Source: an uncultured SAR116 cluster alpha proteobacterium
GTDB taxonomy: Bacteria > Pseudomonadota > Alphaproteobacteria > Puniceispirillales > Marisalimonadaceae
Reading direction: 5' to 3'
Length of the DNA stretch: 64,000 nt
NCBI GenBank assembly: GCA_902619805.1
Contig: CACNGC010000002.1
Coordinates: 83,538 to 147,537, forward strand
Positions 4,029 to 15,007 of the stretch are shown in pieces (position 1 is the first letter of the stretch; each line of letters begins with the position of its first letter). The notes under the pieces are model-generated. The model did no database searches and had not been told where the DNA came from. It saw only the letters and a list, made by a program, of their open reading frames with translations. A program made the translations under genes and the position numbers.

Positions 4029-5231
4029 ATGGCTATTGAAAACATATCGCAAGAAAATTTTCATAAAATATGTGTTGTTGGTGGAGGAATAACAGGGGCT
4101 ATGATGGTCTTACTGTTAAAAAATTCAAAAATGTTCAAGTTGAGTGATATATGTTGGGTTAAACCAAGTTTAAAATTAAAAAATGATTTAAGAACGACGT
4201 TTTTCAACAATACTAGTTTGGAATTGCTAAATAATTTGAATATTTTAGATAAACTAAAAAAAAATGATTATACGCCAGTAAAAAGTATTCAAGTATTTGG
4301 TCCTAATCATAGTTTACCATTAGAATGGGATTATGTTGATACAAAAAGAGAATTTGGTGCAGTAATCAAAAATGCTATTGTTTTAAATATCCTAGAAAAG
4401 GAACTTAAAGACATAAAACAATATGAAAGTTTTGTAAATAATACTAAATCAAACCAATTTGAAAGAACTATATATTTAGAAAATAAAAAATCTATAAATA
4501 CACATTTAGTTTTATCTGCAGATGGTAAGAACTCTTACTTTAGAAAATTACTTTCTATAAATACAATAAACAAAAAAACCAAACACATAGTGATTTCTGG
4601 ATTTTTGAAACAATCAAAAAACCATAACTCAAATGCTATTCAAGCATTTACGAATATAGGACCAGTTGGAATACTTCCATATGAGAATAAAAATCTAGTT
4701 AATTTTGTTCAAAGTATTGAAAAAGTTGAGTGTGAAAAAATTTTATCAAAAGAAAATCCAGAATATTTTATTTGCAGTGAGTTAAATAAATTTTTTTCAC
4801 ATATTGATCTAAATTTTAGTCCTATAAAAAAAATTAATAATATAGAAAACAAATTATCATATTGGGATCTCAACTTAAACCTTGTGTTAAATCCAACATC
4901 CTCAAGAGCAGTCTTAATAGGTGATGCTGCTCATTCGATCCATCCTCTAGCGGGGCAAGGACTAAACCTATCTTTAAGAGATTGTGTTTCTATATTAAAT
5001 GCAATAAAAAATTGTTTGAAATTTGGACGTGATCTTGGTGATGAATCTATTTTAAAATTTTACAAGAAAGAAAGACTTCCACGAACCATTTCTATGACAG
5101 CTTTTACTAACTTTATGTTTTTTGGGTTTACTTCAACTTCAGAGAAAACACAATCATTACTTACAAAAGGCATGGAAAATTTAAATAAAACAAAAATAAA
5201 AAATATATTTAGAGATTTGGCATCACTTTGA
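4029..5231 (+). CDS. FAD-dependent ubiquinone-biosynthesis hydroxylase, UbiH/UbiF/Coq6 family
   Basis: Flavoprotein monooxygenase of 400 residues, probably hydroxylating the ubiquinone ring precursor at the membrane. The N-terminal dinucleotide-binding motif VVGGGITGAMM lies at about residues 16-26. The second FAD motif GDAAHSIHPLAGQGLNLSL lies at about residues 298-316, and that GDAAH.mhP.aGqGlN pattern is diagnostic for this family. The ring position hydroxylated (C5, C6 or C1) cannot be told from sequence here. Its lysine/asparagine content is high, in line with its neighbours. It converges with the DUF971 gene, leaving a single base between their stops. Confidence 0.88.
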   Translation: MAIENISQENFHKICVVGGGITGAMMVLLLKNSKMFKLSDICWVKPSLKLKNDLRTTFFNNTSLELLNNLNILDKLKKNDYTPVKSIQVFGPNHSLPLEWDYVDTKREFGAVIKNAIVLNILEKELKDIKQYESFVNNTKSNQFERTIYLENKKSINTHLVLSADGKNSYFRKLLSINTINKKTKHIVISGFLKQSKNHNSNAIQAFTNIGPVGILPYENKNLVNFVQSIEKVECEKILSKENPEYFICSELNKFFSHIDLNFSPIKKINNIENKLSYWDLNLNLVLNPTSSRAVLIGDAAHSIHPLAGQGLNLSLRDCVSILNAIKNCLKFGRDLGDESILKFYKKERLPRTISMTAFTNFMFFGFTSTSEKTQSLLTKGMENLNKTKIKNIFRDLASL

Positions 5232-5232
5232 T

Positions 5233-5559
5233 TTATAAAGAATTGTAATATTCTTGTAGGTACTTATCATGATTTTTTCCATAATCGTATAATAATCCCC
5301 AACTATAAATCCCTGATGAGTGATTATCAGAAAAAATGATTCTAATAGCATAATTACCAACGGGTTCAATTTGATCAATTAGAATGTTTTCTTTATTTCT
5401 CACAATAATCTTGGGACCTCCATGACCTTGAACGTCAGCAGAGGGACTTTCTACTCTCAATAATTCTGATAAAATATTGAACTTAGTGTTATCATCAAAA
5501 TGAATTGACAAATATTTACCATTATCTTTTCTTTTAATTAAGATTGGAGTAGCTTCCAT
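5233..5559 (-). CDS. DUF971 / gamma-butyrobetaine hydroxylase N-terminal-like protein
   Basis: Small protein of 108 residues formed by one DUF971 domain, recognisable by the run RIIFSDNHSSGIYSWGLLYD near the C-terminus and the L-x-V-ESPSADVQGHG stretch in the middle. The same fold forms the N-terminal domain of gamma-butyrobetaine and trimethyllysine hydroxylases. In bacteria the stand-alone form is linked to iron-sulfur or Mrp-associated functions, but its exact role is not settled. Zinc-binding cysteines found in some homologues are absent. It sits 45 bp downstream of the LON-domain gene on the same strand, so the two may be co-transcribed. Confidence 0.85.
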   Translation of the reverse strand: MEATPILIKRKDNGKYLSIHFDDNTKFNILSELLRVESPSADVQGHGGPKIIVRNKENILIDQIEPVGNYAIRIIFSDNHSSGIYSWGLLYDYGKNHDKYLQEYYNSL

Positions 5560-6274: not shown

Positions 6275-7177
6275 TTAAGAAAATAATAATGTTGCTAACT
6301 TTTTTCTGGCACTAATTGTCTCTTTTGCTTCAATACCTGCTGATGAAAAAAATTCTAGCAACTGCTTTCTGGCTGCTTGTTCATTCCATTCTTTGTCTAT
6401 TTTAATAGATTTCAATAGCATTTCAAAAGAATCTTCAATCTTACCTATACCAAATAAAGCAATTGCCATTTGTAATAAATAATCTAAATTGTCTGGTTGT
6501 TTTTGTAATTTTTTTTCTAAATCTTTGATACTTCCTTTTGCCATAAAAGCCTTTTCAGAAGTTTCAAGCAATGAAATTGCTTCTTCAACTGGCTTAGAAT
6601 TTTTTATTTCTGGAGCTAAATTATCAATTAATTCTTTTGTTTCGTTAAACTTATCTAACCCAATCATTGATCGAATAAGATTTCCAAAACCAATGTGATT
6701 TTCTGGATCTATAGCTAAAATCTTTTGAGAAATTTCAAAAGACTTACTCCAATCCCTTATTTCTATAAGTTCTTTTGCACTTAAAATTAAATCTTCAACT
6801 TCTTGTCCAGGACCAGATAAACTTGCTGATTTTTTAACAAATTCTATTATTTCACTTTTTGATTTAGCTCCTTGAAATCCGTCAACAACTTTACCTTCAA
6901 AAAAAGTATAGATCGTAGGAATAGATTGAATTCTTAATTGTGCAGCAATATTCTGATTTTGATCAATATCAATTTTAGCTAAAATTAACTCTTGTCCATA
7001 ACCTTTAACAGCATCTTCTAATAAAGGTGTAAGGGTTTTACAAGGTTCACACCATGGAGCCCAAAAATCAACTATGACTGGCTTTGTTTTGGAAAGTTCT
7101 ACAACTTCACTCATAAATGTTTCTTCATTTACATTTATAATATTGCTCGCTGTTGAGATTAAATCATTGTTTTCCAT
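6275..7177 (-). CDS. cnoX: Thioredoxin-domain/TPR chaperedoxin, CnoX (YbbN)-like
   Basis: Two-part protein of 300 residues. Residues about 18-120 are a thioredoxin domain with the active site WAPWCEPCK near residue 42, followed by the cis-proline segment IQSIPTIYTFF. Residues about 125-295 are TPR-like helical repeats. This is the architecture of CnoX/YbbN, a holdase that protects proteins from oxidative aggregation and hands them to GroEL and DnaK. Both active-site cysteines are kept, so unlike E. coli CnoX it could also act as a disulfide reductase. The gene leads a probable unit with the LON-domain and DUF971 genes. It diverges from the Gfo/Idh gene over about 150 bp. Confidence 0.85.
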   Translation of the reverse strand: MENNDLISTASNIINVNEETFMSEVVELSKTKPVIVDFWAPWCEPCKTLTPLLEDAVKGYGQELILAKIDIDQNQNIAAQLRIQSIPTIYTFFEGKVVDGFQGAKSKSEIIEFVKKSASLSGPGQEVEDLILSAKELIEIRDWSKSFEISQKILAIDPENHIGFGNLIRSMIGLDKFNETKELIDNLAPEIKNSKPVEEAISLLETSEKAFMAKGSIKDLEKKLQKQPDNLDYLLQMAIALFGIGKIEDSFEMLLKSIKIDKEWNEQAARKQLLEFFSSAGIEAKETISARKKLATLLFS

Positions 7178-7330
7178 TATTAAGACTCCTGATTATGAAT
7201 TATTGATATGGTTGTCAGCAAATAATATTTCAACAATTTATTACAAAATACTACAATTGACCAATGACTAAAGTGTATGTATCTAAAGAGTTGATAATGA
7301 TTCAACCTAAAATGAAAATTATAACGTAAG

Positions 7331-8281
7331 ATGACAAGAGAATTAAACATTGCTCTGATTGGTTGTGGTAACTGGGGAAAAAATATAGCTAGAAATTTAC
7401 ATCAAATGGGGGTTCTTGCATGTATATGTGACTCAAATACAAAATTATCAGAAAAACTCAGTTATGACTATTCACTACCAAATTTAGAACTAAATAAAAT
7501 TTTTAAAGATCAAAACATCAATGCAATTGTAATTGCTTCACCAGCAATAACACATAAAGATCTAGCAACTGAAGCTCTAAAAAATGATAAAGATGTATTT
7601 ATAGAAAAACCATTTTGTTTGTCATTGCCCGATGCTCAAAAACTTTCAGAATTAGCTACAGATAAAAATAAAGTTTTGATGGTTGGCCATTTACTAAATT
7701 ATCATAACGCTTTTGTAAAAATGAAAGAACTTATCAAAAATGGTAAAATAGGTATTTTACAAAACATTCGAGCTAATCGCCTCGCTCTAGGTGCTATTAG
7801 AACAGAAGAATCTGTGATTTATGATTTATCCGCTCACGACATTTCCATGATACTTTCTATTGTAAAAGAATTACCTATTGGGGTAAATGTTCAATCAATT
7901 CATCATCATAATAATATTGGACCAGACGCAGTCAGTATAAAATTATCATTTTCAAGAGGTGTAACCGCATTGATTAATTCTGATTGGATGTGTCCGTACA
8001 AAGAACATTTATTTTCTGTAATTGGAACAAAAGGATCACTCATTTTTGACGACACAAAAAATTGGTCAGAAAAATTGCTATATAATCCATCATTTGTAAC
8101 AAACAAAAATACAATTAAGACTTTACCAACTGAAAAAATTAAAATCCAAGAAAACGAACCCCTTAAAAGTGAATTAAAAGAATTTTTAAACTGTATATAT
8201 GCAAGAAAAAGCCCTTTAACAGACCATAAAGAAGCTGTAAAAGTTCAAACTGTTATAGATATGATAGACAAAAAAATTTGA
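7331..8281 (+). CDS. Gfo/Idh/MocA-family NAD(P)-dependent oxidoreductase
   Basis: Oxidoreductase of 316 residues with an N-terminal Rossmann domain (IALIGCGNWGKNIARN, residues about 6-21) and the family EKPF motif near residue 92, which places the catalytic lysine. The C-terminal half is the alpha/beta substrate domain, with SAHDISMILSI around residue 165. Family members oxidise or dehydrogenate sugars, inositols or nucleotide-sugars. The next gene, 17 bp downstream, is a sugar aminotransferase. That pairing is typical of nucleotide-sugar pathways in which a 3-keto sugar is made and then aminated (WlbA/WlbE-like), so an activated amino-sugar for surface polysaccharide is the likely product. 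Exact substrate unknown. Confidence 0.85.
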   Translation: MTRELNIALIGCGNWGKNIARNLHQMGVLACICDSNTKLSEKLSYDYSLPNLELNKIFKDQNINAIVIASPAITHKDLATEALKNDKDVFIEKPFCLSLPDAQKLSELATDKNKVLMVGHLLNYHNAFVKMKELIKNGKIGILQNIRANRLALGAIRTEESVIYDLSAHDISMILSIVKELPIGVNVQSIHHHNNIGPDAVSIKLSFSRGVTALINSDWMCPYKEHLFSVIGTKGSLIFDDTKNWSEKLLYNPSFVTNKNTIKTLPTEKIKIQENEPLKSELKEFLNCIYARKSPLTDHKEAVKVQTVIDMIDKKI

Positions 8282-8298
8282 GAGAATAAAATAGACTT

Positions 8299-9438
8299 AT
8301 GATTCCATTTATAGATCTAAATGCTCAACAAAAACTAATTCGTGATAAAATAGATAAGCGTATTAATCAAGTTCTTGATCATGGACAATATATTTTAGGC
8401 CCAGAAGTAAAAGAACTTGAAGATAAACTTAGTTCATTTACAGGCTCTAAGTATGTGTTATGTTGCTCAAGCGGAACAGATGCATTGTTATTATCTTTGC
8501 TTGGCCTAAAAATTAAACCTGGTGATGGTGTTATTGTACCTGCTTTTACTTTCGCTTCGTCTGCTGAGGTTATGCCTTTGCTCGGTGCTATTCCAATTTT
8601 CGTGGATGTTAAGCGTGATACCTTCAATATGGATCCAACTAAACTGCCTGACTCTCTAAATACTGCCAAGGTCTTAGGTATTGATGTAAAAGGGATAATG
8701 CCTATTGGTTTGTTCGGTCAACCAGCGGAGATGGATTTAATAAATGATTTTGCAAAAAGTAATAATTTATGGGTTCTTGATGATGCTGCACAATCATTTG
8801 GAGGTAAATATAAAGACAAAATTGTTGGAAATTTATCTGAAGCAGCTGCAACATCTTTCTTTCCTGCAAAACCGCTAGGTTGTTATGGGGATGGAGGGGC
8901 AGTTTTTACAAATGATAAAAAAATTTATGAAATAGCAAATTCTTCTCATATACATGGTATGGGAAAAAAAAGGTATGAATACGATAGGATAGGAATGAAT
9001 GCTCGTATGTCTACAATTCAAGCTGCCATATTATTAGAAAAACTTGAAATATTTCCAGATGAGTTGCAAAAAAGACAGATAGTAGCAGATAACTATAATA
9101 AAAACTTAAGCTCTCTAAATCTCAGTATTGAATTGCCGGAAATTCACAAAAATTTCAAAAGTAGTTGGGCCCAATATACAATCATACTCCCAAAAAACAT
9201 CAATAGAGACAAACTACAAGAATATTTAAAATCAAAAAACATTCCTACTGCAGTTTATTATCCAATACCTCTAAATGAACACAAACCTTATAATAAATAT
9301 CCAGTATCTAAAAGTGGCCTAGATGTTACATACTATTTATCTAAAAATGTTTTGTCTTTACCCATGCACCCGTATTTAAAGGAAGACGAGATCATTTATA
9401 TTTCTGAGAATATATATAATTTTATAAAAAAACACTAA
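8299..9438 (+). CDS. DegT/DnrJ/EryC1/StrS-family PLP sugar aminotransferase
   Basis: PLP-dependent nucleotide-sugar aminotransferase of 379 residues. It begins with the family start IPFIDLNAQQKLI, then has SSGTDALLLSLLGL (phosphate-binding turn), VPAFTFASSAEVM, the aspartate in VLDDAAQSFGG, and the PLP lysine in SFFPAKPLGCYGDGGA near residue 191. HGMGKKRYEYDRIGMNARMS and the C-terminal YPIPLNEHKPYN are also characteristic. It most likely aminates the keto-sugar made by the preceding Gfo/Idh enzyme, feeding amino-sugar units into LPS or capsule. It ends just upstream of the tRNA-Gly gene that carries the integrated element. Confidence 0.92.
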   Translation: MIPFIDLNAQQKLIRDKIDKRINQVLDHGQYILGPEVKELEDKLSSFTGSKYVLCCSSGTDALLLSLLGLKIKPGDGVIVPAFTFASSAEVMPLLGAIPIFVDVKRDTFNMDPTKLPDSLNTAKVLGIDVKGIMPIGLFGQPAEMDLINDFAKSNNLWVLDDAAQSFGGKYKDKIVGNLSEAAATSFFPAKPLGCYGDGGAVFTNDKKIYEIANSSHIHGMGKKRYEYDRIGMNARMSTIQAAILLEKLEIFPDELQKRQIVADNYNKNLSSLNLSIELPEIHKNFKSSWAQYTIILPKNINRDKLQEYLKSKNIPTAVYYPIPLNEHKPYNKYPVSKSGLDVTYYLSKNVLSLPMHPYLKEDEIIYISENIYNFIKKH

Positions 9439-9462
9439 GATAGATAATTTTTTTGTTTTTCC

Positions 9463-9490
9463 TTGATACTATTGATTAGAATGTTATATT
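9463..9490 (+). promoter_or_regulatory. Probable sigma70-type promoter of tRNA-Gly
   Basis: TTGATA (9463-9468) and TATATT (9485-9490) are separated by 16 bp, placing a start near 9497, about 8 bp before the mature tRNA. Both boxes are close to consensus, but the surrounding DNA is AT-rich, so this is suggestive only. No similar pair precedes the partial tRNA copy near 12030. Confidence 0.45.
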
Positions 9491-9504
9491 TCAAAAAAAA
9501 TTAA

Positions 9505-9579
9505 GCGGGCGTAGCTCAGTGGTAGAGCATCTCGTTGCCAACGAGAATGTCGAGAGTTCGAATCTCTTCGCCCGCTCCA
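9505..9579 (+). tRNA. tRNA-Gly (anticodon GCC)
   Basis: Complete cloverleaf. The 5' acceptor strand GCGGGCG (9505-9511) pairs fully with CGCCCGC (9569-9575), followed by discriminator T and an encoded CCA (9577-9579). The anticodon stem TCTCG/CGAGA encloses the loop TTGCCAA with anticodon GCC at 9537-9539. The T arm carries GTTCGAATC. From base 9511 on, the gene is repeated exactly at 12030-12099, marking it as the attachment site of the downstream element. Confidence 0.97.
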
Positions 9580-9580
9580 A
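9511..9580 (+). repeat. Left copy (attL-type) of 70 bp tRNA-Gly direct repeat
   Basis: Bases 9511-9580 are identical over 70 bp to 12030-12099, in the same orientation. The copy covers the tRNA from acceptor position 7 through CCA plus one extra base. A repeated 3' part of a tRNA gene at both ends of an inserted segment is the usual product of site-specific integration into a tRNA. Confidence 0.9.
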
Positions 9581-9644
9581 TCCGCTTAACTGAGATACCC
9601 ATTCTTACACAAATATTGAACCTTTTAGAAGGGCGGGCTTTAAA

Positions 9645-9674
9645 TGGGTAGACAAAATGGTAGACAAAAGATGA
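9645..9674 (+). repeat. Tandem GGTAGACAAAA repeats, putative integrase arm sites (left)
   Basis: GGTAGACAAAA occurs at 9647-9657 and again at 9659-9669, a 12 bp period. The second copy extends to GTAGACAAAAGATGA, which recurs at the right end of the element. The array lies 66-95 bp from the tRNA 3' end, a usual place for arm-type sites. Confidence 0.5.
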
Positions 9675-9696
9675 AAATTTTTCACTGCTGAACGGT

Positions 9697-10341
9697 TTAA
9701 TTGATTAATCCCATTACCTCAAAAGTCTTTTGAACATAGTCAACTAATTCAGCTTTCTTCTCAATTATTTCAATGTCATAGTTTGTTTTTTCTGTAAATT
9801 CAAAAAATCGTTTTTCATCATTTTTATCAAATTTGAATTTAATTTTTTTAGCAATTTCTTTAATTCTTCTATTAACTAAATTATCTATTCTTTTCAGATC
9901 AATCTTATTTAAACTCTCTTCATTTTTAAAATTTTTAATAGCATCAAATAATCTTTCTTCTTTAGCTATTTTATAATTTTTACTAGATTTATAGCCATTT
10001 ATTTTATTTCCAAAATTATTATTTCTATCATAATTATCGTCTGACGAATTGTTGTTATTGTCATTTGAATATGATTGTTCACTAGAGTTGTCTTGAACAG
10101 ATGGTGTGTCTGCAGTTTTACTAGTAAGTGCATTATCTTTGCTAGAGTTAGTAATATTTTCTATACTTTTACTTGCTGAAGCCTCTGTTTTAACTCCTGC
10201 ACTTGTGTCATCTGATTTATCTGCTTTACTTACAGAAACAGTGACACTTACTTTTCCAGAACTTTTGCTGTAAGAAAATGCTTTGTTTTGGATAAGTAAT
10301 GTAGAAAGTATAAGTATAAATATTTTAAATAAGATTTTCAT
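9697..10341 (-). CDS. Hypothetical secreted Ser/Asn-rich protein with helical C-terminus
   Basis: Not recognised as any named family. The 214 residues begin with a signal peptide (MKILFKIFILILSTLLIQNKAFS), then a Ser/Thr/Lys-rich stretch of short beta-like repeats (KVSVTVSVSKADKS), a low-complexity Asn/Asp/Ser linker at about residues 85-115, and a charged, probably helical or coiled-coil C-terminus (about 125-214) rich in Lys and Glu. It is predicted to be exported to the periplasm or beyond. It is the only minus-strand gene of the element and is divergent from the 114-aa gene over 140 bp in which no clear promoter stands out. Its composition suits an extracellular or cell-surface cargo protein, but no function can be assigned. 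Confidence 0.65.
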   Translation of the reverse strand: MKILFKIFILILSTLLIQNKAFSYSKSSGKVSVTVSVSKADKSDDTSAGVKTEASASKSIENITNSSKDNALTSKTADTPSVQDNSSEQSYSNDNNNNSSDDNYDRNNNFGNKINGYKSSKNYKIAKEERLFDAIKNFKNEESLNKIDLKRIDNLVNRRIKEIAKKIKFKFDKNDEKRFFEFTEKTNYDIEIIEKKAELVDYVQKTFEVMGLIN

Positions 10342-10481
10342 TGTTTTCTGTGTTTCAAATCATGAATTGAGTATTGAATGTATATAATAAATTGGGTAAA
10401 AATTGAAAGAAATAAAATCGTTTATTTGTATTCACACTAATGTTTTTGCATATTTAATTTGCATACTAACAGGTGACATAC

Positions 10482-10826
10482 ATGGTAAAACCAATAACTA
10501 AAGAGACTTTATTCATGAATTGTATGGAGCTAGATTTTGCAACAAAGGTTGAATTAGAGCACTGGATGGCAACTTTTGAAGAAAAAGTATGGACAGAAGA
10601 TATAATGAAAGAACTATCTAAAGCAGGATTAGTAAGAAGAACTGTTGCCCAAGTCTGGAACAAACAAAATCATAGATTAACAAGTACATTTGAGTATGAA
10701 GATGAGAATGCTTACAAGGCGTGTCAAAAGATAATTGAAGAAAAAGTTATGCCTAAAGCACTAGCAAGTTATACCATAAAGTCTAGGAATAATAGGGGGG
10801 TAATTTTTTATGATTATAGAAGTTGA
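10482..10826 (+). CDS. Hypothetical protein of the tRNA-Gly element
   Basis: Not recognised. It is a 114-residue soluble protein without signal peptide or membrane segment. The ATG at 10482 is preferred over the in-frame GTG at 10473 because AGG (10471-10473) then stands 8 nt upstream as a ribosome site. The sequence looks like a compact alpha/beta domain: a helical first half (ELDFATKVELEHWMATFEEK), then TVAQVWNKQNHRLTSTFEYE and a final helix-strand section. The pattern loosely recalls dimeric alpha-beta barrels, but no family residues confirm this. It is transcribed away from the secreted-protein gene and toward the mini-operon at 10981. Confidence 0.65.
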   Translation: MVKPITKETLFMNCMELDFATKVELEHWMATFEEKVWTEDIMKELSKAGLVRRTVAQVWNKQNHRLTSTFEYEDENAYKACQKIIEEKVMPKALASYTIKSRNNRGVIFYDYRS

Positions 10827-10980
10827 TTTATAAATTCTAAATCTATTTTTAAAAATATACAGGAATTGTCAGTCTACCAAATTTTAAATAACTTCTAAAA
10901 TTTTCAACACAACAAACATAAATTTTTTTGATAATATTTAGTGATATTGAATATTATTTAAAAAAGATTAAATAATTACT

Positions 10981-11097
10981 ATGTCAACAATACAAAAAAT
11001 CATAGTTATACCAATATTGAGATCTCAAGTTAGACTTTATGTTTTCTTTGGTATTCTTTTTGGTTTTTATCAATTTATTTCATGGATAGAAAATTAG
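10981..11097 (+). CDS. Small hydrophobic membrane peptide (38 aa)
   Basis: A 38-codon reading frame starting MSTIQKIIVIPILRSQVRL. One hydrophobic segment (YVFFGILFGFYQFISWI) fills the C-terminal half. The stop codon at 11095-11097 is immediately followed by the GGAG ribosome site of the next small gene, which supports co-expression. Such a short frame could be chance in AT-rich DNA. The membrane-like composition and tight placement before another short membrane gene are the only support. No function can be assigned. Confidence 0.4.
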   Translation: MSTIQKIIVIPILRSQVRLYVFFGILFGFYQFISWIEN

Positions 11098-11106
11098 GAG
11101 TTTAAA

Positions 11107-11259
11107 ATGTTTGGATTAGGAATAATTAAAGGCACTATTATAGGTATGGGCGTAGGAGTAATGGCTGGTCTAGCTCTAAAAGAAGTTTGCAAAATGAAAA
11201 AAAAGAAAGATCAAATTAGTAAAACTGAAAGTGATAGTGTTGATCCAGAAAATAGTTAA
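11107..11259 (+). CDS. Small single-pass membrane protein (50 aa)
   Basis: A 50-residue protein with a good ribosome site (GGAG at 11097-11100, 6 nt before ATG). The first 26 residues form a glycine-rich hydrophobic segment (LGIIKGTIIGMGVGVMAG), followed by a very basic patch KMKKKKDQ and an acidic tail ending SDSVDPENS. A single glycine-zipper-like helix with a cytoplasmic basic patch is the expected layout. It lies 10 bp after the 38-aa gene and 17 bp before the DUF4174-like gene, all in one direction, so a three-gene operon inside the element is likely. Function unknown. Confidence 0.55.
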   Translation: MFGLGIIKGTIIGMGVGVMAGLALKEVCKMKKKKDQISKTESDSVDPENS

Positions 11260-11275
11260 TACAAATTAATGAATA

Positions 11276-11821
11276 ATGGATTTAACGAAATACAAATGGA
11301 AATGTAGAATACTTTTGTTATGTACGACTTGCTACAGAGATAATAACTATAAAAAATCTAAAGAACTTTATCAAAAGCATATAAAAGAATTTCATAAAAG
11401 GCATGTCAAATTAATGTCTTTCAGAAAAAAGGGTCTTAAGTTTTCTATCAAACTAATAGGTTACGATGGTACTTTAAAAAAAGAATACTCAACTTTAGAA
11501 CCTGATATTATTTTTGATCTTATAGACACTATGCCAATGAGTAAGCAAGACTATCAGGGAAAGTTAAAGCCTCTTAATCTGTCTCTATATTCAGATTACA
11601 AGCCCGAGACAACTCTAAAAGGACTCGGATTTAAGAATAAAGAAAAAGCAACCTATACAATAGATGCAATAAAAGCTAGAGACAAAAAATATCAGGTTAA
11701 TGTTGTATCCACCATGTTAGGAAGAGCAAAAAAACATCCAAACAAAACTACTGATATGGATGAAGCAATATTAGTTTTTGAGAAATGGATGCTGAATTAC
11801 AAAAAAACTAAAGCAAATTAG
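11276..11821 (+). CDS. DUF4174-like domain protein with an extra C-terminal helical domain
   Basis: A 181-residue protein without a signal peptide. Residues about 5-93 fit the DUF4174 pattern: YKWKCRILLLC at the start, a central helix ending in an Arg/His-rich turn, then IKLIGYDGTLKKEYS and the closing IDTMPMS, matching the family's IDxMPM ending. Residues about 110-178 form a separate, basic, probably helical domain (LGFKNKEKATYTIDAIKARD then VVSTMLGRAKKHPNKT) that I do not recognise. DUF4174 proteins are usually exported and thioredoxin-like in shape with unknown function. A cytosolic form fused to a second domain on a mobile element is unusual. The family call is by motif memory only. Confidence 0.6.
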   Translation: MDLTKYKWKCRILLLCTTCYRDNNYKKSKELYQKHIKEFHKRHVKLMSFRKKGLKFSIKLIGYDGTLKKEYSTLEPDIIFDLIDTMPMSKQDYQGKLKPLNLSLYSDYKPETTLKGLGFKNKEKATYTIDAIKARDKKYQVNVVSTMLGRAKKHPNKTTDMDEAILVFEKWMLNYKKTKAN

Positions 11822-11946
11822 TTACTTGTACAACTAACGTTGCAACATAAAAAGAGATCTAAATTTCGTGCCTATGCATAAACACCCCGGGTGGACCTTG
11901 CATGGGCATTTCTTATCGTTAATTATAAAAGGCAGAATACAAAAAT

Positions 11947-11961
11947 GTAGACAAAAGATGA
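11947..11961 (+). repeat. Right-end copy of GTAGACAAAAGATGA
   Basis: Exact 15 bp match, in the same orientation, to 9660-9674 at the left end of the element. It lies 68 bp before the right tRNA-Gly repeat. Matching short sequences just inside both ends support a common integration system. Confidence 0.5.
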
Positions 11962-12029
11962 GCATCTTTACTCCTTTTTCATTATATTCTATCGTAGTAA
12001 TTGCAGTTGAATACACAGGAATAATGGCA

Positions 12030-12099
12030 GTAGCTCAGTGGTAGAGCATCTCGTTGCCAACGAGAATGTCGAGAGTTCGAATCTCTTCGCCCGCTCCAA
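12030..12099 (+). pseudogene. Truncated tRNA-Gly copy (attR-type repeat)
   Basis: Identical over 70 bp to 9511-9580. The upstream seven bases ATGGCAG replace GCGGGCG, so the acceptor stem pairs at only three positions plus one wobble. The copy therefore cannot form a normal tRNA-Gly and also lacks the promoter seen before the intact gene. It most likely is the displaced 3' part of the original gene at the right boundary of the element. Confidence 0.85.
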
Positions 12100-12116
12100 A
12101 ATTTCTATAAATGTTA

Positions 12117-13217
12117 TTAAGTAATCTCTAATAAATCAAAATTAACTTTATCCAAAATGTAATAATCATTAAGATTGTTAATAATATTTTTTGACGCAAT
12201 GAAGAAACCTACATATTTAGAGTTTTTAGGTGACCAAACAATTGAGGTTGCTCTTCCTATTTCTATATCTTCTTTAAACACTTGGAGATTATTAAAAAAA
12301 ACATGTTTATTTTCACTTTTAAAATCAAAATGAATTTTATATATATCTTTTGAAAACCCATCTTTTTTTTGTTTTAATAAAGCAGATTTTCCAATGAAAT
12401 TATAATCTGTATCAAGATTACAAAATTTTCCTAGCCCACAATCATAAGGTAAGTCTTTATTTGTCATCTCATTTCCATAACTAAGTAGATTATTCTCTAC
12501 CCTTTCAATCATATTTGGACATCCAACCCTTATGTTAAATTCTTTACCTCTTTCTATTATAAGATCCCACAAAAGAGTCCCATTTTTGGGGTTTTTTAGC
12601 AAAATTTCATATCCAGATTGTTTGCTGAAACCAGTTTTTGAAATAATAATACTTTCTTTATTAAAGGAAAATTTTTTAAAATTAAAAAATTTAAGAGATT
12701 TTATTTCCTCACCAAAAATTTTTGAAATAAGTTCTTCAGATTTTGGGCCTTGAACTGCAATAGTTAATATGTCTGTTTCATTTACTTCTGAGTAAAATTC
12801 TTTTGTATGATTTATTGCTGATATCCAATTAAACAAATCTGAATCAGATAAAGAAATTAAGAAATGATCATCAGCCAAGCAAAAAACAACTGGATCATTT
12901 AATAGGCCCCCTTCAAAATTTACTATGGGTGCATAATAAGCTCTGCCAGGAGTAACTTTTGTAAAATCTCTGCAAAATAAATACTTAATTATACCTAGAG
13001 CTTTATTTCCTTTAACTTCTATTACTTTTTGTGCACATACGTCCCATAACTGAACATGTTTTATTAAATGCAAATAGTCACTTTTTAAAGATTTAAATAT
13101 TGTTGGTATTAATGTGTTATTATAAACACTATATTTTTTTACGCCTGCCTTTTCGTTTCTTGAACTAAAGGGGGTACTTTTAATTCTATTTGATGTAGTA
13201 AAAAAATCATTAGACAT
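12117..13217 (-). CDS. dmdA: Dimethylsulfoniopropionate demethylase (DmdA) or close GcvT-family homologue
   Basis: A GcvT-fold protein of 366 residues that resembles DmdA, which moves a methyl group from DMSP to tetrahydrofolate giving methylmercaptopropionate and 5-methyl-THF. DmdA-like stretches occur in order: RIKSTPFSSR near residue 12, HVQLWDVCAQK near 55, CRDF then YYAPIVN near 90-105, GGLLNDPVV, TIAVQGPKSEELISKIFG near 158, GFSKQSGYEILL near 205, VGCPNMIERVE near 247 and LSYGNEM. Classical GcvT lacks several of these. Where DmdA has SGWSKQGG, this protein has TGFSKQSG, so it could be a DmdA paralogue with another methyl donor. A MetF-like gene starts divergently 49 bp away, which fits disposal of 5-methyl-THF. 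Confidence 0.68.
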   Translation of the reverse strand: MSNDFFTTSNRIKSTPFSSRNEKAGVKKYSVYNNTLIPTIFKSLKSDYLHLIKHVQLWDVCAQKVIEVKGNKALGIIKYLFCRDFTKVTPGRAYYAPIVNFEGGLLNDPVVFCLADDHFLISLSDSDLFNWISAINHTKEFYSEVNETDILTIAVQGPKSEELISKIFGEEIKSLKFFNFKKFSFNKESIIISKTGFSKQSGYEILLKNPKNGTLLWDLIIERGKEFNIRVGCPNMIERVENNLLSYGNEMTNKDLPYDCGLGKFCNLDTDYNFIGKSALLKQKKDGFSKDIYKIHFDFKSENKHVFFNNLQVFKEDIEIGRATSIVWSPKNSKYVGFFIASKNIINNLNDYYILDKVNFDLLEIT

Positions 13218-13266
13218 TTTAAAATCCCACCTTTAAATAAAACTAAAACCACTTTGGACATTTTTT

Positions 13267-14157
13267 ATGAAAAGTAAATTAAGAAATTCACTACAGAAAA
13301 ATAAATTTGTTTTTACTGCCGAAACATCTCCTCCAGACTCAGGTAATAAAGATACAGTTATCAATCAAGTCATATGCTTAAAAAATTTAGCTGATGCGGT
13401 TAATGTTACTGATGGCGCCGGTGCTAAGTCTCACATGTCTGCTTTGGCAACAGCTGCTATTCTGGCTCAACATGAAATCGAGCCTGTATTACAATTCACT
13501 ACAAGAGACAGAAATAGAATTGCAATTCAAGGCGATTTACTTGGTGGATGGGCTTTAAATGTTCCTAATATACTTTGTTTATATGGTGATGAAGTCAAAG
13601 GTGGAGATCAGCCAGAGGCAAAAGAAGTTCGAGATTTAGATACAATTAGTCTATTAAAAACTGCACACGATATTAAAATTAACCATAGTTATCCATCTGG
13701 GAGAAAAATTGATGATGCACCTAATTTTTTTATTGGTGGAGCAGACACACCTTTTGAAGTCAAAGATGATTTTGATGCAGCAAATCTAGTAAAAAAAATC
13801 AATTCAGGAGTTGAATTCTTTCAAACTCAATATGCTTTTGATGAAATGATATTGAAAAATTATATGCTCAAATTAAATAAACTTGGTGTAACAGATAAGG
13901 CGTATTTTATTATTGGATTAGGAGTTATTAAATCAGCAAAAAGTGCTAGATGGATGAATAAAAATTTATTTGGTATTAATATTCCTGAGCAAATAATAAA
14001 CAGAATTGAAAATTCTAATAACGAAAAATTAGAAGGTATAAAAATTTGTGTTGAGCTAATTGAAAGATATAAATTAATAAGTGGTGTAAGTGGAATTCAC
14101 TTAATGGGTTATAAACAAGAAGAGGATATAGCCTCTGTAATTTCAAATTTTAAATAA
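13267..14157 (+). CDS. metF: Methylenetetrahydrofolate reductase, MetF-like
   Basis: TIM-barrel flavoprotein of 296 residues. It shows the MetF start FVFTAETSPPDSGN, then AVNVTDGAGAKSHMS near residue 45, the folate/FAD-contact region EPVLQFTTRDRNR near 80, and QTQYAFDE near 195. MetF interconverts 5,10-methylene-THF and 5-methyl-THF with NAD(P)H. Its position, head-to-head with a DmdA-like demethylase over 49 bp, suggests oxidation of 5-methyl-THF released during DMSP breakdown, rather than or in addition to methionine synthesis. That direction is an inference. A DUF1445 gene follows 28 bp downstream of the stop. Confidence 0.85.
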   Translation: MKSKLRNSLQKNKFVFTAETSPPDSGNKDTVINQVICLKNLADAVNVTDGAGAKSHMSALATAAILAQHEIEPVLQFTTRDRNRIAIQGDLLGGWALNVPNILCLYGDEVKGGDQPEAKEVRDLDTISLLKTAHDIKINHSYPSGRKIDDAPNFFIGGADTPFEVKDDFDAANLVKKINSGVEFFQTQYAFDEMILKNYMLKLNKLGVTDKAYFIIGLGVIKSAKSARWMNKNLFGINIPEQIINRIENSNNEKLEGIKICVELIERYKLISGVSGIHLMGYKQEEDIASVISNFK

Positions 14158-14185
14158 TAAATGATAATGTAAATTGGAATTGAAA

Positions 14186-15007
14186 ATGCAAGAACTTACA
14201 AATATTTATAATAAAGCAAAAACATATAGTAATTCGCGATTAAGAGCAGTAATTAGATCAGGAGAATATAAGGGTCAAACGGCTGGTTTATCCCAAAATA
14301 TGCTTCAAACAAATCTCATTATTCTAGAACAAAAATATGCTTTAGATTTTATGATATTTTGTCAAAGAAATCCAAAAGCTTGTCCACTTGTTGGCGTGTC
14401 AGATGTTGGTGTCCCTTTTCTAAAAACATTAGGTAAAAATATAGACGTTAGAACGGACGTCCCATCTTATAATATTTATAGGAATGGAGAACTGCATAGT
14501 GTTGTTCACGAAATTAATAATTTCTGGAATGAAAACCTTGTTGCATTTGCAATTGGTTGTTCATTCACATTTGAACATTCTCTAATTAGGAATGGCTTTA
14601 CAATAGATCATATTAATGAAAATAAAGTTGTTCCTATGTATAAGACAAATATTAAAAATGTAAAAAGTGGACCTTTTGGAAACACAATGGTTGTCTCAAT
14701 GAGAATTTTTAAAAAAATTCATGTTAATAACATTATTAATATTTGTAAATCTTTTCATTGGGCACATGGAAGGCCTGTACATTTTGGGAGCCCAGATGAA
14801 ATTGGCATTTTAAATGTTTTTGAACCTGACTGGGGAGATGTTCCAAGACCCTTGTTAGAAGATGAAGTAAATGTCTTTTGGGCTTGTGGTGTAACTCCCC
14901 AAAATGCAATATTAGATTCTTCGGTTCCGTTTTGTATATCTCATACACCTGGTTATATGCTTATTACTGATATTAAAGAGGATGCTGAAATACCAATTAT
15001 ACAATAA
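14186..15007 (+). CDS. DUF1445 / UPF0317 putative hydro-lyase
   Basis: A DUF1445 protein of 273 residues. Characteristic runs are LRAVIRSGEYKGQTAGLSQN near the start, then FMIFCQRNPKACPLVGVSD, AIGCSFTFEHSL, GNTMVVSMRIF, HGRPVHFGSPDEIGI, and a final VFWACGVTPQNA with SHTPGYMLITD. Family annotation is putative hydro-lyase, and one branch is known as D-glutamate cyclase. The substrate here is unknown. I chose ATG at 14186 because GGA stands 7 nt upstream, although TTG at 14174 is also in frame. Probably co-transcribed with the MetF-like gene. Its stop is two bases from the convergent purT stop. Confidence 0.85.
   Translation: MQELTNIYNKAKTYSNSRLRAVIRSGEYKGQTAGLSQNMLQTNLIILEQKYALDFMIFCQRNPKACPLVGVSDVGVPFLKTLGKNIDVRTDVPSYNIYRNGELHSVVHEINNFWNENLVAFAIGCSFTFEHSLIRNGFTIDHINENKVVPMYKTNIKNVKSGPFGNTMVVSMRIFKKIHVNNIINICKSFHWAHGRPVHFGSPDEIGILNVFEPDWGDVPRPLLEDEVNVFWACGVTPQNAILDSSVPFCISHTPGYMLITDIKEDAEIPIIQ

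Follow-up and report, generated by a model that had tools for sequence, protein, structure and literature searches.

The window, a 64,000-nucleotide stretch of DNA, comes from the SAR116 genus that includes SCGC AAA536-G10. It contains an intact plus-strand tRNA-Gly(GCC) gene (9505–9579), called by ARAGORN and scoring 73.4 bits with Rfam, on the attL side of an integration site. The longest direct repeat within positions 7000–15000 is exact and 70 bp long, with a left copy at 9511–9580 and a right copy at 12030–12099 (both plus strand; spacing 2519). The right copy is a tRNA without its 5′ acceptor strand, followed by native 3′ flank; ARAGORN calls no tRNA there, and Rfam finds a partial one (12030–12088, 51.8 bits). 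These searches confirm the direct repeat, intact on the left and acceptor-less on the right, that had been noticed in a preliminary description of the locus. An assembly artefact is unlikely, because the same arrangement is also found in three other genomes (G002, G022, and G036).

Between the repeat copies lie five short conserved genes, here called the block, all of which have homologs at the tRNA-Gly locus of relatives. The leftmost (9697–10341, minus strand) encodes a 214-aa protein modeled with an N-terminal helix, a low-confidence middle, and a helical C-terminus; a structure search with this model was dropped, its mean pLDDT of 48.5 being too poor. The plus-strand genes that follow encode a DUF6974 protein (10482–10826; Pfam E 4.6e-19) whose model resembles dimeric ferredoxin-like marine proteins (PDB 2OP5; Foldseek E 6.8e-07, 37% identity), a 38-aa hydrophobic protein (10981–11097) with homologs here in 25 genomes including the window's own, a 50-aa protein with a hydrophobic N-terminus (11107–11259) and homologs at the same locus in relatives, and a 181-aa DUF4174-like protein (11276–11821; Pfam E 1e-13). 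Because this cargo comprises small hydrophobic proteins and a ferredoxin-like protein, it suggests use by the host rather than a role in mobility. The best PADLOC match among four cargo proteins (E 0.0073) was not credited as a defence system.

No recombinase family in Pfam matches any of the five proteins, and a six-frame Phage_integrase search of the window's own genome hits eight places, none of them inside 9505–12099. Both the earlier count of five short genes with no recombinase among them and the absence of an integrase from the unit are thus upheld.

Ends of the unit and a parent-type island

Sister genomes supply both an empty site and an intact island. In G030 the next gene begins ∼25 bp past the tRNA, and over 35 bp this empty site is 66% identical to the flank of the window's right repeat copy, as against 50% for that of the left copy. 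The G062 island measures 12.5 kb from tRNA to tRNA copy, has an attL with two arms, and encodes a 385-aa integrase free of stops (Phage_integrase E 9.3e-16, DUF6538 E 2.4e-15). From the empty site and the island ends, the ends of the window's unit can be recognized as the attL and attR sites of an island family with a tyrosine integrase, which supports the type of insertion proposed in the preliminary description. The repeat had also been remarked on as unusually long; its 70 bp are explained by the right end of the G062 island, which itself includes 69 nt of the tRNA.

At the left end, an inner attL segment (9580–9645, plus strand) is element-derived: it is 67% identical to its counterpart in the G062 island, against a mean of 49% and a maximum of 57% for shuffled controls, and 88% identical to that of G010. 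Beyond it, two arm-type repeats GGTAGACAAAA at 9647 and 9659 (9647–9669, plus strand) are presumed integrase binding sites. The doubled arm motif has 37 matches in 23 of the 40 genus genomes and none in a reversed control, and within the window's genome it occurs only inside the window. From left arm to tRNA end the distance is mostly 78–82 bp across genomes; it is 91 bp in G021 and 93 bp in G013, in both of which the second arm alone matches exactly.

The inner attL of the window is the odd one out, since 14 other compared genomes are 73–95% identical to G062 over this segment. It is also only 64–68% identical to those of G022, G002, G036, and G008, whose blocks differ from the window's by only 0.04–0.06. 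With inner attL diverged and blocks so little diverged, the latest move was therefore not a plain left-side crossover in the tRNA; the left junction of the unit falls at the arm repeats and not at the tRNA core.

The right-end (attR) segment (11821–12029, plus strand) starts at the palindrome GTTACTTGTACAACTAAC and extends for 209 bp as far as the tRNA copy. It matches the G062 island's right end at 85.2% identity, G002 and G022 at 94–95%, and G036 at 90.5%. It holds the right arm-type site TGTAGACAAAA (11946–11956, plus strand), which lies within a repeat from the direct-repeat search; right arms stand 113–116 or 139–140 bp from the tRNA end. A related module recurs in tandem every 0.7–4 kb at several loci, as might be expected of an integron cassette array in which this module is the attC site. 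Yet none of the 40 genomes (many assemblies being incomplete) has an integron integrase above the TIGR02249 cut-off, in six cases the module leads into sequence matching the final 18 nt of the tRNA next to it, and 23 of the 24 module matches in tRNA-bearing loci share the orientation of the tRNA, so that we give an integron almost no credence.

G022 retains an integrase with one or more stops. The window's genome (91% complete) encodes a single homolog of the tRNA-Gly integrase, at 61% identity and adjoining tRNA-Arg(TCG), and no cognate helper was found in it; this, like the confinement of the doubled arm motif to the window, weighs against the explanation proposed below. Among twelve island-related proteins, Pfam detected no conjugation family, and most had no match above the cut-off.

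Small size, a tRNA site, and the lack of a recombinase would also suit a phage satellite that is non-autonomous and depends on a helper phage for packaging, and the preliminary description had raised a satellite-like element. This idea is not supported: IMG/VR scans, in which only close relatives are detectable, found none of the DUF6974, DUF4174-like, and 214-aa proteins or of two integrases; DNA searches of phage and plasmid records gave no match; and the best PHROGs match for four cargo proteins was only E 0.015. A satellite is accordingly very unlikely. The arm pattern did match two viral contigs, in whose examined stretches ARAGORN called no tRNAs; we took it for a generic motif and did not count it as a phage link. 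On one of these contigs, by reading, similar arm repeats adjoin an apparent integrase start.

Distribution and divergence of the block

The block is present, whole or partial, at the tRNA-Gly locus of 28 of the 40 genus genomes, or 28 of 30 resolvable loci; eight genomes have no readable tRNA-Gly(GCC) locus (G006, G009, G015, G024, G027, G028, G029, and G061), and in G034 and G063 the locus breaks off after the tRNA. Several of the 28 copies are partial or at contig ends (e.g. G018, G023, and G003), the G016 block has no 214-aa gene, and the DUF6974 gene is broken in G014. Thirteen copies are oriented as in the window and 15 are inverted, with a minimum of 3 to 5 orientation changes depending on the tree. 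Inverted copies break close to the stop codon of the gene for the 214-aa protein and shortly after the DUF4174-like gene; inspection by eye showed no inverted repeat that would explain the inversions. Nor is the block always joined to the same right end. The boundaries of the window's unit do not hold for the cargo generally: most relatives have other ends, and the block is often inverted.

The preliminary description had set mobility against the case in which the gene content at this place is the same, and unvarying, in every relative. The genes do recur in the 28 genomes; the lack of variation does not, given two orientations, different ends, and block copies that are mostly far less diverged than core genes. 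Mobility is further supported by the horizontal spread of the block and by four genomes (G017, G019, G022, and G031) in which different DNA fills the interval from this tRNA to the following gene.

Synonymous divergence is lower in the block than in rpoB in 117 of 120 genome pairs, which are not independent (medians 0.175 and 0.46), at equal expected saturation (0.61 and 0.62). Between the window's genome (G000) and G022, fourfold divergence is 0.04 in the block, 0.40 in rpoB, 0.29 in the left flank, and 0.50 in the right. Block rows exclude DUF6974 matches below 84% identity, avoiding a second, paralogous copy; left-flank rows exclude aminotransferase matches below 50%. The rpoB data cover 20 genomes, 16 of them common to the block tree; early quick trees of block and rpoB were replaced by the later ones used for AU tests. 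In these tests the block rejects the rpoB pair {G000, G003} (p 2.6e-6) and rpoB rejects the block pair {G000, G022} (p 2.5e-8), while a deep rpoB clade of six genomes survives the test on the block (p 0.475). The test of {G012, G016, G020} on rpoB (p 5.9e-50) was set aside, this group being no clade of the block tree either. From the lower divergence and the mutual rejection of several groupings we infer horizontal spread: the sequences suggest that the block passed between sister species far more recently than the species split, and divergence and tree conflict support its repeated transfer from one species of the genus to another, in either orientation.

These data bear on whether the block is a fixed relic, integrated once, decayed, and then inherited vertically as ordinary genes. 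Its presence at nearly all resolvable loci would fit, as would the decay of the right tRNA copy in G022 (94%), G036 (96%), and G035 (85%) and the partial agreement of deep clades in the two trees. Against it stand the low block divergence and the conflict of the tested shallow groupings; moreover, in five comparisons the block shows 91–97% identity over two 150-bp stretches that are mostly intergenic, when right-flank stretches are 72–92% and left-flank stretches 83–98%. A relic is improbable, and for the genus as a whole it is already contradicted.

The flanks bring in another explanation, ordinary homologous recombination, in which DNA uptake and double crossovers move the block with no integrase acting today, the tRNA and att repeats serving only as anchors. 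The block falls below both flanks by more than 0.1 in only 166 of 276 pairs (again not independent), and in some pairs the right flank is the closer: 0.16 against 0.27 for the block in G000–G012, 0.08 against 0.26 in G016–G003, and 0.01 against 0.10 in G021–G012. The flanks therefore recombine as well. The window's locus is itself a mosaic, its left flank nearest G010 and G019 (0.19) and its right flank nearest G012 and G021 (0.16), and a left junction at the arm repeats would agree with such exchange. However, in G002, G022, and G036 identity falls just past the right tRNA copy, from 93–97% to 85–90%, and inversion of the whole block requires an extra step. We hold this explanation to be a possible one, less probable than that given below.

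Proposed explanation and comparison with known systems

We propose, with a probability of about 0.75, that the segment is an integrase-less cargo unit, formally like a CIME (cis-mobilizable element), in a tRNA-Gly(GCC) hotspot, bounded by attL and attR, whose block has spread horizontally. Its ends are those of a tyrosine-integrase (DUF6538-type) island family whose att site carries 69 nt of the tRNA; comparison with the empty site and the island shows that integration restored a complete tRNA at the left end, while the copy at the right end lacks the acceptor strand. Judging from relatives, the unit probably once had an integrase that has since been lost. The likeliest route is that the block rides islands that integrate at tRNA-Gly and whose integrase excises it in trans or in cis; recombination among the repeated att and arm sequences would afterwards trim and rearrange it. 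At present it may either be carried by tRNA-Gly islands or recombine at the repeated arm sites.

A fixed attL–cargo–attR unit does not account for the other right ends or the inverted blocks. Tentatively, the block might have swept the whole genus by changing ends, taking over attL and attR modules from resident islands through exchange at their repeated arm sites. It could then, on the same speculative footing, dock at one tRNA in either orientation, with cargo and mobility modules evolving independently.

The proposed cargo unit suggests how cargo without a mobility gene moves between uncultured ocean species at one chromosomal address. Within a single genus, an empty site and an intact island of the parent type occur alongside decayed intermediate and inverted forms, which makes the persistence and spread of integrase-less islands testable with single-cell genomes. 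The locus also carries a warning: vertical inheritance cannot be assumed for hotspot genes, even when almost every member of a genus has them.

By description, the unit is like the tycheposons of Prochlorococcus, tRNA-bounded marine cargo elements linked to tyrosine recombinases; these are given as 4–200 kb in the parts of PMC10872708 and PMC11389934 drawn on here, compared with 2.5 kb for the SAR116 unit. The additive flexible genomic islands fGI-2 of the Methylophilaceae likewise belong to streamlined aquatic bacteria, and in the account of them in PMC10872708 the last 20 nt of a tRNA recur and the units, most with no assigned function, range from 330 bp to 42 kb; that part of the source gives no parent island or cargo phylogeny, whereas both are given here for SAR116. 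The Dehalococcoides ssrA islands, as outlined in PMC3146451, also lie in tandem downstream of a single small RNA gene, whose 3′ end bounds them, with an integration module in only some and with cargo-only units proposed to be cis-mobilizable. Their recombinase is of the serine type and their repeat 20 bp long, in contrast to SAR116, with its tyrosine integrase, a repeat that reaches 70 bp, and a single conserved block of cargo.

A formal parallel is the CIME, which the definition in PMC5704250 describes as having no integration gene and keeping attL and attR, with tandem accretion at the att site. On the sequence side of that definition, the window's unit shares these features, and tandem islands at the same tRNA, with units beside decayed ones (G036, G022, and G019), resemble accretion; the earlier suggestion that the family could be undescribed is not borne out in the sense of a wholly new kind of element. 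Unlike a CIME, the SAR116 unit has no recognised conjugative parent, and its cargo is inverted in about half of the genomes and occurs with more than one right end. The kind of element is already known; its genus-wide spread and its inversions are the new part.

Ends of the unit and the intact island of G062

The exact 70-bp direct repeat (9511-9580 and 12030-12099) consists of an intact tRNA-Gly(GCC) on the left and, on the right, a partial tRNA without the 5′ acceptor strand. Relatives carry homologs of the five short genes between the copies at the corresponding locus. The host is a member of the SAR116 cluster: a scan of named genomes gave as relatives single-cell genomes and MAGs that are either SAR116 or alphaproteobacterial. 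None of the five cargo proteins matches a recombinase family in Pfam, and none of the eight Phage_integrase places in the window's own genome (G000) lies inside the segment. The preliminary description, which had recorded this repeat, the intact and acceptor-less tRNAs, the five genes and the lack of a recombinase, was right in these observations.

Other genomes of this SAR116 genus (G001-G036 and G061-G063) supply both an empty site and an intact island. In G030 the next gene starts ∼25 bp past the tRNA, with nothing between, and over 35 bp the post-tRNA sequence is 66% identical to the window's right flank versus 50% to the flank of its left copy; the right copy therefore carries the native 3′ flank, and element DNA follows the left copy. 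This arrangement is the one expected of attL and attR. At the same tRNA, G062 holds an intact island spanning 12.5 kb: behind the tRNA come two GGTAGACAA arms and a 385-aa integrase that is free of stops and matches Phage_integrase and DUF6538, then further genes, and last a right end in which the palindrome GTTACTTGTACAACTAAC and an arm precede a tRNA copy of 69 nt. The unusual length of the repeat is explained by the island's own attachment site, which carries nearly the whole tRNA. The window's 209-bp right end (11821-12029) is 85.2% identical to that of G062. The inner attL (9580-9645) is only 67% identical between the two (shuffled controls: mean 49%, maximum 57%), the window's value being the lowest, as all 14 other genomes compared give 73-95%. 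The doubled arm motif has 37 matches in 23 of 40 genus genomes; the reversed control has none.

Junctions, helper integrase and related modules

Identity between the window and G002, G022 and G036 falls from 93-97% to 85-90% beyond the right tRNA copy; against G008 and G010, both without that right end, the drop comes where the DUF4174-like gene ends. The window's left-hand switch is at the arms: the 66 bp preceding them share 64-68% identity with G022, G002, G036 and G008 but 88% with G010. As the latest event, a simple crossover within the tRNA does not fit this left junction, which points to recombination at the arm repeats, perhaps following integration.

In the window's own genome, a single homolog of the tRNA-Gly integrase of G031 (61% identity) adjoins tRNA-Arg(TCG), and there is no second doubled arm motif, so no cognate helper is seen in this 91% complete assembly; G062 does carry an intact one. 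Elsewhere in G000 (contig C6), tRNA-Val(GAC) at L062:3164-3235 is followed by an integrase, behind which a 52-bp stretch at about 4420-4472, in reverse orientation and including the right-end palindrome, matches the right end of the window's unit with 83% identity.

Depending on the genome, members of the integrase family neighbour tRNA-Gly(GCC), Gly(TCC), Arg(TCG) or Leu(GAG). A related right-end module of ∼220-330 bp occurs in tandem copies downstream of several tRNAs (loci L131, L133, L135, L138, L139, L142, L147 and L148; tRNA-Arg, tRNA-Gly(TCC) and tRNA-Leu), and 23 of its 24 matches point the same way as the tRNA. It combines a common part with target-specific arm repeats and tRNA ends. 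Many of these units were not matched by the integrase query, and the module differs in type from the right end in the window. At the tRNA-Gly(TCC) of L135, two nearly identical modules (5190-5416 and 7747-7973) lie in opposite orientations ∼2.5 kb apart, which could allow inversion.

Distribution and horizontal spread of the cargo block

The block (9697-11821) is present at the tRNA-Gly locus, whole or in part, in 28 of 40 genus genomes. Thirteen have the window's orientation (G000, G002, G003, G005, G008, G010, G011, G018, G019, G022, G026, G035 and G036) and 15 have it inverted (G001, G004, G007, G012, G013, G014, G016, G020, G021, G023, G025, G031, G032, G033 and G062), with breakpoints close to the 214-aa gene's stop codon and just beyond the DUF4174-like gene. 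It is absent from two resolved loci (G017 and G030); in two more the sequence ends after the tRNA (G034 and G063), and eight genomes have no readable locus. The block lies inside a full-length right tRNA copy in G000, G002, G022 and G036; this copy is degenerate in G035, a short repeat of the tRNA end is present in G016, and elsewhere the corresponding stretch is decayed or unrecognisable. Extra DNA separates the tRNA from the block in several genomes, among them G022 (∼15 kb), G031 (∼18 kb) and G019 (∼18 kb), and mini-units flanked by tRNA ends occur in G036 (∼1.1 kb) and G021 (∼1.9 kb), neither matched by the integrase query. The G019 insert (L036/L037), bounded by tRNA-Gly and a further, incomplete tRNA copy, resembles surface-polysaccharide genes on a gene reading by eye; the hotspot may thus also take up cell-surface genes.

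At fourfold sites, G000 and G022 differ by 0.04 in the block, 0.40 in rpoB, 0.29 in the left flank and 0.50 in the right; G002 and G004, with opposite block orientations, differ by 0.06 in the block versus 0.39 and 0.29. The block lies below both flanks by >0.1 in 166 of 276 pairs and does not in the other 110; in some pairs one flank is closer (e.g. G000-G012: right flank 0.16, block 0.27). With all synonymous codons counted, divergence is lower for the block than for rpoB in 117 of 120 pairs (medians 0.175 and 0.46, respectively), and the saturation predicted from base composition is the same for both (0.61 and 0.62). In five comparisons, two mostly intergenic block stretches share 91-97% identity, an argument against protein constraint as the cause of the low divergence.

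When groups from one tree were tested on the other, the block rejected {G000, G003, G016, G022} (p 1.6e-4) and {G000, G003} (p 2.6e-6), and rpoB rejected {G000, G022} (p 2.5e-8) and {G003, G018} (p 1.1e-5); the block did not reject the deep six-genome clade (p 0.475). Our reading is that the block combines an old association with the genus and repeated later transfer. The window's left flank (7331-9438) is nearest to G010 and G019 (0.19 at fourfold sites) and its right flank (12117-14157) to G012 and G021 (0.16), which makes the locus a recombination mosaic in its own right.

Cargo proteins and comparison with known elements

The DUF6974 model (mean pLDDT 71.8) is similar to PDB 2OP5, a structure of dimeric ferredoxin-like marine proteins (E 6.8e-07, 37% identity); the structure prediction for the 214-aa protein is poor. 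A 454-aa ORF of the G022 island (L149:8780-10144) matches no Pfam family above cut-off; it contains the stretches DYSQLNPN and IHDSF, which may resemble family-A polymerase motifs.

In a limited literature search, no paper was found on SAR116, tRNA-Gly and mobile elements, and none by title on SAR116, genomic islands, tRNA and integrases; a term search of a SAR116 phylogenomic study (PMC8547437) found neither 'genomic island' nor 'integrase'. The preliminary description had proposed a decayed island or a non-autonomous element mobilised in trans, perhaps of an undescribed family, and was half right: judged from sequence, the unit appears to derive from a tRNA-Gly island family, with att ends but without an integrase, and is formally CIME-like; its cargo has passed between species and is found in both orientations. 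The literature used for comparison comprised the CIME definition and accretion model (PMC5704250), Dehalococcoides ssrA islands (PMC3146451), and Methylophilaceae islands and tycheposons (PMC10872708 and PMC11389934). This kind of element is already known; the present one is a useful variant because of the intact parent-type island, the empty site and a cargo that spreads independently of the ends.
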